From an uncultured Bacteriovorax sp. (GTDB lineage: Bacteria; Bdellovibrionota; Bacteriovoracia; Bacteriovoracales; Bacteriovoracaceae): a DNA stretch of 24,602 nucleotides. Within the stretch, counting starts at the first letter, position 1; every line of letters begins with the position of its first letter. Below are positions 2,985-5,787 of this stretch, piece after piece. The DNA lies in assembly GCA_946480715.1 (NCBI GenBank), contig CAMLKK010000036.1, positions 1 to 24,602 of the forward strand, in the 5' to 3' direction. The notes below the pieces were generated by a model. The model was not told the origin of the DNA. It did not search any database and saw only the letters and a program-made list of their open reading frames with translations. The position numbers and the translations under genes were made by a program.

Positions 2985-4031
2985 GTGAAAAAAAACACGA
3001 TGTTTAAAATTATCTTTCTTTCTCTAATTCTATCTTCATGTGGATTGATCGAAAGATTTAAAACGCCAGAACAACCAAGCGATACAATGACAGAAGAAGC
3101 TTCAAGCGAAACTGCTTCATCTGAAACTCCAACAACAGATGCTGATGATCTCTTCAGCCAATCAATGGATTCAGCAAGCGCTTCAACATCTGAAACAGCA
3201 GCAACTGACTCACCTTCAAATGTTGATTCAGATCTTAAATCACTCGAATCAGAATTTAGCGGAACAGCTTCAAGTGAAGTTCAAGTAAAAGAAGAAATTC
3301 CAGAAATCAAAGAAGAGCCAGTAGCAATGGCCTCTAACACGTCTTCAGGTATGTCGGGTGAAGGCGGAACAATTCAAACCTACCGTGTTCAAAAAGGCGA
3401 AACGCTTATGCAAATCGCTTTCAAAATCTATGGTGACATCGGAAAGTGGAAAGACATCAAAGCGATGAACCGTGGACAACTCTCAAGCAACAATTCGCTC
3501 AGAACAAACATGGAACTTAAATACATGGCACCTGAAACTCCATTTGTGTGGAATCCAGTTGGCGTTCCTTACATGATCAAATCAGGTGAAACACTAGGAA
3601 CAATTTCGAACACTGTGTACTCTACTCCAAAAAAATGGAAATCAATTTACGAAAACAACAGACCTCTTATCAAAAATCCTAACGTGATCTTCGCCGGCTT
3701 CACTCTTTACTACAAAAAGAATCCAAGCATGGCCAACTACGTTCAACCAGCTGCTGCTCAACCGAAATCAGCTGCTAAAACAACTGAAGAAGTGATCGTA
3801 GAAGAGTTGATGAATGAAGACAAAACATCAGCAGCTAAGCCAACAATTGAATCACTTACAACAGATGAAGCCGCTCAAATTCAAGCAGCTCCTGCTCGTC
3901 CGGAAATCCAAGAAGGGGAAATCGATCTTATCAACAACGTATCAGCTCCGATCAAAGACGAAGCTGTTCAAGGCATCAACTCTAGAGACCTTCCGCCGAT
4001 GATCGATGAAGAAATCCAAACTCTCGAATAG
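2985..4031 (+). CDS. Lipoprotein with two LysM peptidoglycan-binding domains
   Basis: A 348-aa protein. The N-terminus MKKNTMFKII leads into a lipobox LSSC (acylated Cys 19), so it is a lipoprotein of the cell envelope. Residues 30-125 are a low-complexity Ser/Thr/Glu/Ala-rich spacer. Two LysM domains follow at about 132-182 (YRVQKGETLMQIAFKIYGD) and 195-243 (YMIKSGETLGTISNTVY), then an acidic Ala-rich tail. LysM modules bind N-acetylglucosamine-containing glycans, so the protein probably tethers or senses peptidoglycan. No catalytic domain is seen. The start is GTG at 2985 with a GAGGGG site about 6-8 bases upstream. Its TAG stop is the first three bases of repeat copy A, and a strong terminator follows 25 bases later. 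Domains confident, role inferred. Confidence 0.88.
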   Translation: MKKNTMFKIIFLSLILSSCGLIERFKTPEQPSDTMTEEASSETASSETPTTDADDLFSQSMDSASASTSETAATDSPSNVDSDLKSLESEFSGTASSEVQVKEEIPEIKEEPVAMASNTSSGMSGEGGTIQTYRVQKGETLMQIAFKIYGDIGKWKDIKAMNRGQLSSNNSLRTNMELKYMAPETPFVWNPVGVPYMIKSGETLGTISNTVYSTPKKWKSIYENNRPLIKNPNVIFAGFTLYYKKNPSMANYVQPAAAQPKSAAKTTEEVIVEELMNEDKTSAAKPTIESLTTDEAAQIQAAPARPEIQEGEIDLINNVSAPIKDEAVQGINSRDLPPMIDEEIQTLE

Positions 4032-4056
4032 GTTCCAACACACTTTTCTTGTTGCA
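4029..4056 (+). repeat. Repeat copy A (28 bases) overlapping the stop of the LysM gene
   Basis: It begins TAGGTTCCAACACAC and ends CTTGTTGCA. It is identical over 28/28 bases to copy C on the opposite strand (5361 to 5334) and matches copy B (4499-4525) at 26 of 27 bases. The first three bases are the TAG stop codon of the LysM lipoprotein gene. It points away from that gene, like the other two copies with respect to theirs. Confidence 0.9.
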
Positions 4057-4086
4057 AAGCCTCACTTCGGTGGGGCTTTTTTTTTT
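4057..4086 (+). terminator. Rho-independent terminator after the LysM lipoprotein gene
   Basis: A 9-bp stem, AAGCCTCAC paired with GTGGGGCTT (one G-T pair), closes a TTCG tetraloop at 4066-4069. It is followed by an unbroken run of ten T (4077-4086). This is a classic intrinsic terminator for plus-strand transcription. It lies immediately after repeat copy A, so the repeat would be part of the 3' UTR. Confidence 0.9.
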
Positions 4087-4167
4087 GAACTCTTTCTTTT
4101 TTACAGGACCGCCCACCTAAACGAGATTTTGCTATATAGTGACTTATCTTAATTTAGAGGGGTCATT

Positions 4168-4497
4168 ATGAAATTCATCGCACTTTTCGCTTCACTTATT
4201 ATTGCTTCATCATCATTCGCTCAAACAAAATGTCGCGATTATAAAATCGATGAAAAGCTGGAATTAAAAGTGGCCGCCTGTAAGGGAATTGCCGCTCTAG
4301 ATCCTTATACAAAAATTGACCTCAACGGTTGCGTGAGCAAGTCGAAATTCAATATTTGCGAATCACTCGAGAATGGAATTGTTAGCAAAGATCTTGAAGT
4401 GAAAGGTTACTTGGTTCCGGGAACTTTATATGTCTGTACTATGGGCATCTCTCATAGAGATGAAGTTTATCGCGTAGACTGTAACGGAAACTACTAA
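4168..4497 (+). CDS. Small exported six-cysteine protein, unknown function
   Basis: A 109-aa protein that I do not recognise. MKFIALFASLIIASSSFAQ is a clear Sec signal peptide with cleavage after SFA (residue 18). The mature domain of about 91 residues contains six cysteines (TKC, AAC, NGC, NIC, YVC, VDC), enough for three disulfides, and so should be a compact periplasmic or secreted fold. A good Shine-Dalgarno (AGAGGGG, 5 bases before ATG) supports the start. It lies inside the region bounded by repeat copies A and C, and repeat B begins two bases after its TAA stop (a 1-base gap). It may therefore be cargo of a mobile segment or simply the neighbour into which the element inserted. Confidence 0.75.
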   Translation: MKFIALFASLIIASSSFAQTKCRDYKIDEKLELKVAACKGIAALDPYTKIDLNGCVSKSKFNICESLENGIVSKDLEVKGYLVPGTLYVCTMGISHRDEVYRVDCNGNY

Positions 4498-4498
4498 A

Positions 4499-4525
4499 AG
4501 GTTCCAACACACTTTCCTTGTTGCA
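4499..4525 (+). repeat. Repeat copy B, just after the stop of the six-cysteine protein gene
   Basis: A 27-base copy starting AGGTTCCAACACAC and ending CCTTGTTGCA. It differs from copies A and C only at 4516 (C instead of T). It starts two bases after the upstream gene's TAA. Its last 13 bases form the left arm of the hairpin described at 4513-4564. Confidence 0.9.
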
Positions 4526-4564
4526 CGACGATGAACACATTGAGTGCTATCTGCAACAAGGAAA
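4513..4564. repeat. Inverted repeat / hairpin beside the transposase gene
   Basis: TTTCCTTGTTGCA (4513-4525) is perfectly complementary to TGCAACAAGGAAA (4552-4564) around a 26-base loop. It lies between the six-cysteine gene and the 3' end of the transposase gene. No T-run follows on either strand, so it is not a good terminator. A hairpin at this position is what RAYT/IS200-type enzymes recognise in single-stranded DNA. Confidence 0.75.
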
Positions 4565-4578
4565 ATATCCCACACAAC

Positions 4579-5244
4579 TTACATAATTAAATTCAAATTA
4601 GCGGTAGAAGGCATAGTCAATCTATTGGTTAATTTGTCTTTCCCATACTCAAAAACTGATTTCTTCAAACCACACCGTATGCTCTCAGCTTCTTCATTCC
4701 CGAACGATTGGTTGATCCATTCGAGCTCGCGTTCACCATTTATCACTCCTAAAGTGTTATCAATTTCCACTAGCTTCACACCCGCCGAAGTAAGCATCGT
4801 AGGATGATTCTTCAAAAATAAACTACTATAAGGATATTTTTCTGCTCGATCGACCAAGCCGGCAGCAACAGGATTTCGGCAAATATATTTGTGAGCGTTC
4901 ATGAGATATTCTTGTGACCGAATCAAGGAACCTTTGTATCGCCCGCCAAAAATGCGGTTGATCCGCCCTGCACTTCTTTGAATGTCACTCGTTAGCCCCT
5001 TCATAAAAAAATACATTACGCGATCAATGTCTTCGTCTGGAGTGAGCATCATCAAATGAAAATGATTGTTCATGAGGACGAATGTGCTGATGACGAGATC
5101 GTGTTCCTTCTGCACGCGCTTCAGTCGATCCAAAAAAATTTGCCAGGTGACTTCCAAGGGAATGTAAAAGTTCTCCTTGTTATTGGAACGTGCGGTGATG
5201 TGATAGTAGTGCTCGTTGGAGCGGATGATGGGCTTTCTTGGCAT
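4579..5244 (-). CDS. REP-associated tyrosine transposase (RAYT, Y1/HUH family)
   Basis: A 221-aa single-domain Y1 transposase (Transposase_17/IS200-like). The family landmarks are present: the N-terminal YYHITARSNNKENFY strand, the metal-binding HUH motif as HFH in LMNNHFHLMML (residues 61-63), the RIFGGRYKGSLI segment, and the likely catalytic tyrosine in KYICRNPVAAGLV (Tyr 120). Family members nick and join single-stranded DNA at hairpins and mobilise or maintain REP sequences. The start is taken as ATG at 5244 (MPRKPIIRS), preceded by AAAGGAG 5 bases upstream; an in-frame ATG at 5277 lacks such a site. The gene is intact and all motifs are present, so it may be active. Confidence 0.88.
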   Translation of the reverse strand: MPRKPIIRSNEHYYHITARSNNKENFYIPLEVTWQIFLDRLKRVQKEHDLVISTFVLMNNHFHLMMLTPDEDIDRVMYFFMKGLTSDIQRSAGRINRIFGGRYKGSLIRSQEYLMNAHKYICRNPVAAGLVDRAEKYPYSSLFLKNHPTMLTSAGVKLVEIDNTLGVINGERELEWINQSFGNEEAESIRCGLKKSVFEYGKDKLTNRLTMPSTANLNLIM

Positions 5245-5249
5245 GGAAA

Positions 5250-5282
5250 CTCCTTTGTTTGAAGCCCTGAATTGCAAACAAA
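5250..5282 (-). promoter_or_regulatory. Transposase Shine-Dalgarno with an upstream hairpin
   Basis: On the minus strand AAAGGAG (5256-5250) precedes ATG 5244 by 5 bases and fixes the start. Directly upstream, TTTGTTTG (5282-5275) can pair with CAAACAAA (5261-5254) around a 13-base loop. The downstream arm overlaps the first bases of the SD, so the hairpin could damp translation. The stem is AT-rich and only moderately stable. Confidence 0.45.
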
Positions 5283-5313
5283 AAAACTACTCGCTTTATT
5301 TAAGCACTAGAAA

Positions 5314-5328
5314 TTTCAGTGACTGAAA
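5314..5328. repeat. Short near-palindrome upstream of the transposase gene
   Basis: TTTCAGT G ACTGAAA is a perfect 7-bp inverted repeat with a one-base centre. It lies between the transposase gene and repeat copy C. It could be a protein operator or part of the element end; nothing else supports either role. Confidence 0.4.
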
Positions 5329-5333
5329 CTCTC

Positions 5334-5361
5334 TGCAACAAGAAAAGTGTGTTGGAACCTA
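5334..5361 (-). repeat. Repeat copy C, supplying the stop of the 142-aa gene
   Basis: Identical over 28 bases to copy A, in opposite orientation. Read on the minus strand it starts with the TAG stop codon of the 5359-5787 gene. Together with A it forms a perfect inverted repeat pair around 4057-5333. Confidence 0.9.
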
Positions 5362-5787
5362 TGAGAAGAATTTGCTTAGGAAACCACCTTTTTTCTTGCG
5401 TTCGATGTTCTCCATCACGTTTCCTTTTTCGAGGAGGTCGCGGTGGAAATCAGAGGCAAGATGTGAGTTTTCAAGCAGCGAATTGTATTCGCTGACAGAG
5501 AGAAGACTCACGCGAGCAGCGTTTACTTCTTCGCAAAGAGCGAAGGCGTATTGATTGAGGCGATCGACTGAATCGAAAGGGCCGATTGATTTTGCCGGAG
5601 CTTTAATTTCTTCGTCAGTGAGGCCTTCTGGTTTGAAGTTTGAATCAAAAAGTTTTTTTGCACCTTCGTGATCGAGCAGTCCTTTTTCATCGAGAAGATA
5701 AAGCAGGTAGTAGGCCGACTCCCCCATTTCTTCCGGATAAGGATTCATGAAATTGTAGACACCAACGATATATTCAACGTCTTTCAT
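5359..5787 (-). CDS. 142-aa protein of unknown function, coupled to the upstream TIM-barrel gene
   Basis: I do not recognise this protein. It has no signal peptide or membrane segment and looks like a soluble, mainly helical cytoplasmic protein: alternating charged and hydrophobic stretches, an EEMGESAYYLLYLLDEKGLLD helix near the N-terminus, and a basic C-terminus (IERKKKGGFLSKFFS). Its ATG overlaps the TGA stop of the upstream gene by four bases (ATGA, 5787-5784), so the two are almost certainly translationally coupled and functionally linked. Its TAG stop belongs to repeat copy C, so the C-terminal end could have been altered by insertion of the repeat. Confidence 0.7.
   Translation of the reverse strand: MKDVEYIVGVYNFMNPYPEEMGESAYYLLYLLDEKGLLDHEGAKKLFDSNFKPEGLTDEEIKAPAKSIGPFDSVDRLNQYAFALCEEVNAARVSLLSVSEYNSLLENSHLASDFHRDLLEKGNVMENIERKKKGGFLSKFFS

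Follow-up and report, generated by a model that had tools for sequence, protein, structure and literature searches.

How short repeats resembling repetitive extragenic palindromes (REPs) come to lie behind genes, and what part REP-associated tyrosine transposases (RAYTs) play in this, is an unsettled question in those portions of the literature drawn on here. A locus from an uncultured Bacteriovorax sp. raises it in compact form. Within a window of 24,602 nucleotides (nt; contig CAMLKK010000036.1, the whole stretch analysed), a RAYT gene and a gene for a small exported protein, predicted as such, lie among three closely similar repeats, two of which overlap the stop codons of the genes on either side. 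We conclude that these repeats are probably copies of a short (~28–34 nt), directional, RAYT-linked repeat, which the RAYT has spread behind gene ends. Part of the evidence is positional: three repeat families, all of which occur at RAYTs and one of which was surveyed on a complete chromosome (Bdellovibrio sp. qaytius, hereafter B. qaytius), have copies whose GGT side points to a gene end, often in register with the stop codon, TA plus the repeat's G making up a TAG stop. The features of the locus are as follows (aa, amino acids).

2985..4031, plus strand: LysM-domain gene (Pfam LysM, 1.1e-8) with a lipoprotein-like start; its TAG stop (4029-4031) overlaps copy A
4029..4056, plus strand: repeat copy A, TA followed by GGTTCCAACACACTTTTCTTGTTGCA
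4056..4079, plus strand: terminator-like hairpin, then a T tract to 4086 (pattern match only)
4168..4497, plus strand: small protein of 109 aa with six cysteines, predicted to be exported on visual inspection of its N-terminus
4499..4525, plus strand: repeat copy B, with a single-base difference, starting 1 nt past the TAA of the small gene
4552..4564, minus strand: half copy limited to the tail, with the same variant base as B, whose tail it matches perfectly in inverted orientation across a 26-nt loop
4579..5244, minus strand (4582-5244 without the stop codon): RAYT-type HUH/Y1 protein, 221 aa, intact, by NCBIfam, alignment, motifs and predicted fold
5334..5361, minus strand: repeat copy C, same as A, overlapping the TAG stop of the next gene
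5359..5787, minus strand: conserved gene, 142 aa, convergent with the LysM gene, which it adjoins in relatives

Sequence comparison bore out the 28-base identity of A (4029-4056, plus) and C (5361-5334, minus) in opposite orientation; when extended, the match is 97% over 32 nt. Copy B differs at one base (C for T), as the original prediction stated, but does not sit just inside A: it lies ~470 nt inward of A, in the gap separating the small gene (4168-4497) from the RAYT gene, so the RAYT has B and C as its immediate flanks, in inverted orientation. The 26-mer GGTTCCAACACACTTTTCTTGTTGCA has three matches in the window at up to three mismatches and none in 100 shuffles; the three copies are not chance. 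Searched for as a 13-mer with two mismatches, the half copy is within chance, 8 of 100 shuffles holding at least four such matches, while the stretch formed by B and the half copy folds far better than shuffles (z -4.75). Hairpin folding of A and C alone is no better than that of shuffles (z -0.38 and -0.10, respectively), and one B. qaytius copy gave z -2.02. In both A and C the repeat's GG comes directly after the TA of the overlapped TAG stop, the two flanking genes being convergent, and B's GG begins 2 nt past the TAA of the small gene. Copy A takes up exactly the stretch from the LysM stop codon to the terminator-like hairpin, which starts at A's last base; the scan for such hairpins over 3900-5500 found 2 with 1.5 expected. 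TA is present on both outer sides of the A–C interval, a dinucleotide that is also stop-codon sequence.

The transposase of the original prediction is a RAYT-class enzyme, judging by its HUH and Y motifs and a TnpA_REP-like predicted fold. The gene is intact, with HFH at residues 61-63 (the HUH motif) and YICRNP at 120-125 (the Y---NP motif), and H61, H63, Y120, N124 and P125 are invariant in 32 of 32 aligned sequences, the window's included. NCBIfam NF047646 (REP-associated tyrosine transposase) matched with 72.1 bits (E 4e-20), below its cut-off of 80; we kept the name because motifs and fold fit and the shortfall is small. Pfam-A gave no match for this protein, whereas PF01797 is present in many of the relatives listed for it. 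The AlphaFold model (predicted local distance difference test, pLDDT, 85.9) has a predicted HUH/Y1 fold, and its best Foldseek match is 4er8_A, TnpA_REP with a REP hairpin (E 1e-8, probability 1.00), followed by the TnpA proteins of IS200, IS608 and ISDra2.

To place copies relative to genes, we took the nearest stop codon whose open frame spans 80 codons or more and reads toward the repeat's GGT side. (Hereafter, G-numbers denote relatives' genomes and L-numbers loci.) A stop lay within 6 nt of the copy in 26 of 69 copies of the window's family, GGTTCC, taken from the window and 41 chosen loci, against 61 of 4000 random points. The corresponding figures were 19 of 29 against 59 of 5000 in the complete B. 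qaytius genome and 9 of 31 against 63 of 5000 in G024, the random-point rate over the three families being 1.2–1.5%. Measured against points in non-coding stretches only, a comparison that leaves out G024, the counts were 23 of 69 for GGTTCC, where such points gave 2.5%, and 19 of 29 for B. qaytius, where they gave 2.7%. The effect is directional: stops on the GGT side outnumber those on the tail side, 36 nt on, by 26 to 5 (n=69), 19 to 7 (n=29) and 9 to 3 (n=31). The commonest single distance in B. qaytius (9 of 29) and G024 (6 of 31) is -1, TA and then the repeat's G. Just 4 of the 69 GGTTCC copies stand at -1, window A and C among them, and in that family distances of 0 to +5 are commoner. 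Four B. qaytius copies carry TAG inside the repeat at -5. A second group of copies stands 49–72 nt from the stop, right after a T-rich tract (L001, L002, L078, L202, L219, L223 and L230). Copy strand relative to replication in B. qaytius, inspected by eye only, showed no clear pattern.

We rejected the idea that the repeat provides new stops: the TAA at L072 is present at the same codon in G004, where there is no repeat, and in the window the 142-aa protein ends as in G008, G089 and G100, the LysM protein being one residue longer than in G008 and G021. The four B. qaytius copies just mentioned and three copies in G024 are exceptions, their stops falling within the repeat.

The repeat belongs to a family dispersed among relatives. 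Thirty loci of RAYT relatives served as entry points, and the family set comprised 129 genomes. A 17-nt core with at most one mismatch has 13, 11, 12, 2, 3, 0, 10 and 0 matches in G001 to G008, respectively, and the reversed control one over all eight. A 16-nt core has, by sums made by hand, 99 matches in 29 of the 129 genomes, up to 13 per genome, and its reversed control 13 in 13 genomes. Thirteen of the 29 core-bearing genomes hold two or more matches; the other 16 hold one each, like the control, and their occurrences may be chance. More than half of the matches (57 of 99) fall in G001 to G007, the genomes with the closest RAYTs, whose best match to the window's protein has 52–62% identity, in two of them over part of the protein only. 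A purely local duplication, which the original prediction had considered should no further copies exist, is unlikely because the core belongs to this dispersed family. RAYT matches themselves occur in 84 of the 129 genomes, one to four per genome having any.

Copies occur singly, as inverted pairs 35–58 nt apart, as wider pairs enclosing a gene, and as RAYT flanks. Inverted repeats up- and downstream (score of at least 13) were found at 36 of 51 RAYT loci, or 34 of 47 distinct ones after removal of four fetched twice, and 24 of these 34 follow the form GG[GT], 5–12 bases, [AC]CTT. Among the RAYT loci examined, the core TTCCAACACACTT is limited to those of the window, L001 to L004 and L008. Other RAYT subfamilies have cores of their own: GGTAGGCCGTCCCTTTTT in B. 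qaytius, with 29 copies at up to three mismatches (control 1), and GGTACGGCCTGACTTTTGGGG in G024, with 33 copies (control 0). G007 keeps 10–11 copies though its closest RAYT copy is broken by stops; it has another RAYT at 43%, and one of its copies (L087) has the window's tail type. Also in G007, at L086 1533-1562, two repeat ends have merged to form an inverted repeat of 30 bases whose arms measure 12 bp, GGTTCCAACACACTTTCCTGTGTTGGAACC.

These observations suggest the following course of events. B and C would be the inverted terminal repeats of the RAYT gene, with B and the half copy able to form a 13-bp hairpin, and A would be one more copy of this repeat, placed at the LysM stop codon. The RAYT may recognise the repeat as a single strand and cut at or near the TA/GG junction, the simple cutting site that the stop-codon register predicts. 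It would have carried copies, and on one occasion the RAYT unit, to sites immediately after stop codons or terminator T tracts, where copies presumably do little harm; the small exported protein would be a neighbour rather than a passenger. We also put forward, tentatively and as a possibility we would not bet on, that the RAYT's choice of target reads gene ends, the repeat being joined behind TA so that insertion into a TAA or TAG rebuilds a TAG from TA and the repeat's G. If true, this would make the repeat a self-sealing insert directed at stop codons and also at the ends of terminator T tracts, in at least three Bdellovibrionota repeat families.

Several points weigh against spreading by the RAYT. 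Repeat copy numbers come from relatives, not from the window's own genome. The 69 copies stem from 42 selected sources rather than all 99 places and include orthologues shared by G001 and G002, which makes the counts not fully independent. At least one of the 26 in register (L066) was counted through an open 83-codon frame, the real gene ending earlier with a terminator in between; the G024 set covers 30 of 33 places, with one of its 31 rows the same copy cut at a locus end, and in three G024 copies the repeat itself contains the stop (TGA, at -12). The link to the RAYT is a loose one: besides the 16 core-bearing genomes with a single match, G098 (6, variant core), G117 (4) and G069 (3) hold copies without a RAYT match, G044 holds 8 core matches beside a RAYT of 43%, and 13 of the 47 distinct RAYT loci, some broken or truncated, have no acceptable flanking pair. 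No pair of near-identical genomes offered a clean filled and empty site, and movement was thus not observed directly. The best case, L066 of G001, has in G002 a shrunken pair rather than an empty site: the repeat pair corresponds there to an 18-bp palindrome, GGTTCCAAGCTTGGAACC (L238 2115-2132), directly behind a terminator-like T tract, which may be a remnant or minimal form of the pair. At L072 the DNA compared with G004, where TAA stands at the same codon without a repeat, is 69–81% identical; most probably the stop is the older of the two and the copy arrived behind it later.

The rival that survives best, though we consider it unlikely, is that the repeat serves the host as a gene-end signal, acting in RNA or DNA and kept by selection for termination or mRNA 3' stability, and that the RAYT merely uses or resembles it. 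The direction of copies relative to genes and the tight stop register are what such a signal would show, as are the fit of A between stop codon and terminator-like hairpin and the retention of orthologous copies in G001 and G002. Because three genomes (G098, G117 and G069) hold copies without a RAYT match, we weighed this explanation slightly up and spreading by the RAYT down. Against it, copies are few per genome (33 or fewer in those searched), the core varies between RAYT subfamilies, and A and C alone do not fold.

A second rival, which we consider improbable, takes A to C as one 1.33-kb transposable unit with 28-bp ends and the small exported protein as cargo, in line with the mobile unit that the original prediction allowed for. 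The state of the site in relatives counts for this idea and equally for spread by the RAYT. In G008, G021, G089 and G096 the LysM and 142-aa genes are convergent neighbours less than ~55 nt apart (12 nt in G008), and the A–C interval is absent between them; with the site nearly closed in these four relatives, the small gene, RAYT and repeats are extra in the window. (In G100 no LysM gene is present before the contig breaks off, 351 nt beyond the 142-aa gene.) A and C are identical, whereas B differs, and relatives exist in which a RAYT and another gene lie inside outer repeats, a DUF2461 gene at L075 and a DUF6973 gene at L081. However, the three repeats abut the stops of three different genes, and the sole relative found for the small protein lies elsewhere without repeats. 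That relative (L243 1498-1821 in G004, 35% identity, with the C-terminus DCNGNY in common) was the one found in a whole-genome search of the 129 genomes, and its 3.3-kb locus has no repeat core at up to four mismatches; among 5.8 billion proteins the small protein matched only itself, at the search tool's sensitivity. For this reason the small protein looks like a rare exported family, with two members seen, and its movement with the RAYT is not supported.

Repeat-bounded cassettes with small, partly exported proteins (L062/L068, L063/L069, L079, L075 and L081) looked likely at first. For the L062/L068 pair of G001 and G002, G004 and G114 have the enclosed 121-aa gene after the same neighbour but no repeats around it (2 of 20 loci); its other-side neighbour, absent there, adjoins it only in G001 and G002, and the closed site itself is not visible. 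This one comparison, too, speaks against a cargo unit, and the reading of A and C as the ends of one mobile element is not supported. As an observation in its own right, G003 shows the window's layout mirrored beside another neighbour gene: at L075 1577-3106 a RAYT and a DUF2461 gene, in that order, are separated by one repeat and bounded by two others. The site between the two convergent genes that bound the window's interval has taken different inserts, being occupied in G007 by an FHA-domain gene (L088 1127-1465).

That recombination between A and C flips the segment 4057-5333 is highly improbable: the inverted repeats are perfect over 28 bp, but 28 bp is short for general recombination, and the apparently orthologous RAYT loci L001, L002 and L004 keep one orientation relative to the upstream frame.

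The arrangement has counterparts among known systems, and a new REP family in the strict sense is not supported. The original prediction was right that it does not resemble the GTAG REP, the GT[AG]G head being absent; A and C alone form no hairpins either, and the TIRtron/TIRYT type fits better. TIRtrons are described in the portions of Di Nocera et al. 2013 (PMC3733652) drawn on here as RAYT-like genes with long terminal inverted repeats (TIRs) of which further copies occur elsewhere; the same portions note that TAG stops are frequently provided by the ends of GTAG REPs and that REPs are found close to the 3' ends of genes. In corresponding portions of Quentin 2018 (PMC6006769), no REP-like sequence is found for subclass 2.1, which holds 20 of the 26 published TIRYT. 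On these descriptions the likeness consists in a RAYT-class gene between long inverted repeats unrelated to GTAG REPs and in moderately abundant further copies, singles and dimers, here seen in relatives. The difference lies in the core, here GGTTCCAACACACTTT and not GGGGWSAS; that motif, given for some but not all published TIRs, is absent from the window repeat GGTTCCAA and is fitted by GGGGTCAG in the downstream repeat of the related locus L015. The main text of PMC3733652 does not contain the words Bdellovibrio and deltaproteobacteria.

With the GTAG REP/REPtron and its TnpA_REP, as portrayed in parts of Nunvar 2010 (PMC2817692) and Quentin 2018 (PMC6006769), the locus shares a Y1 HUH protein, inverted-repeat flanks and dispersed pairs; it differs in lacking the GT[AG]G head and a hairpin from A or C alone, and in copy number, at most 33 per genome searched here against usually more than 100 in Nunvar 2010. 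The HUH/Y1 fold predicted for the window protein is also that of IS200/IS605 elements, from which the protein differs in its 221 aa, its class 2 Y motif (Y---NP) and the few RAYT matches per family genome; Pfam on the five proteins of the interval and neighbours gave no tnpB, in a search not aimed at tnpB. The window repeats thus probably belong to a RAYT-linked repeat family of the TIRtron/TIRYT kind and are not classical GTAG REPs. The arrangement is known and ordinary in kind, but its gene-end register is sharp; what is added is the repeat family, the group of hosts that carries it, and a register that recurs in three repeat families. In the open-access literature we found no report joining RAYT, deltaproteobacteria and inverted repeats, or Bdellovibrio with REP-associated tyrosine transposase.

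Among minor observations, the exact 26-mer has no match in the GTDB r220 contigs, Rfam and tRNA scans returned no matches, and a PHROGs search gave a weak match only, to a family of unknown function. A TTG-start version of the RAYT reading frame extends to 5277. The window looks Bacteriovoracaceae-like, the best matches of the RAYT and of the neighbouring genes falling in that family.

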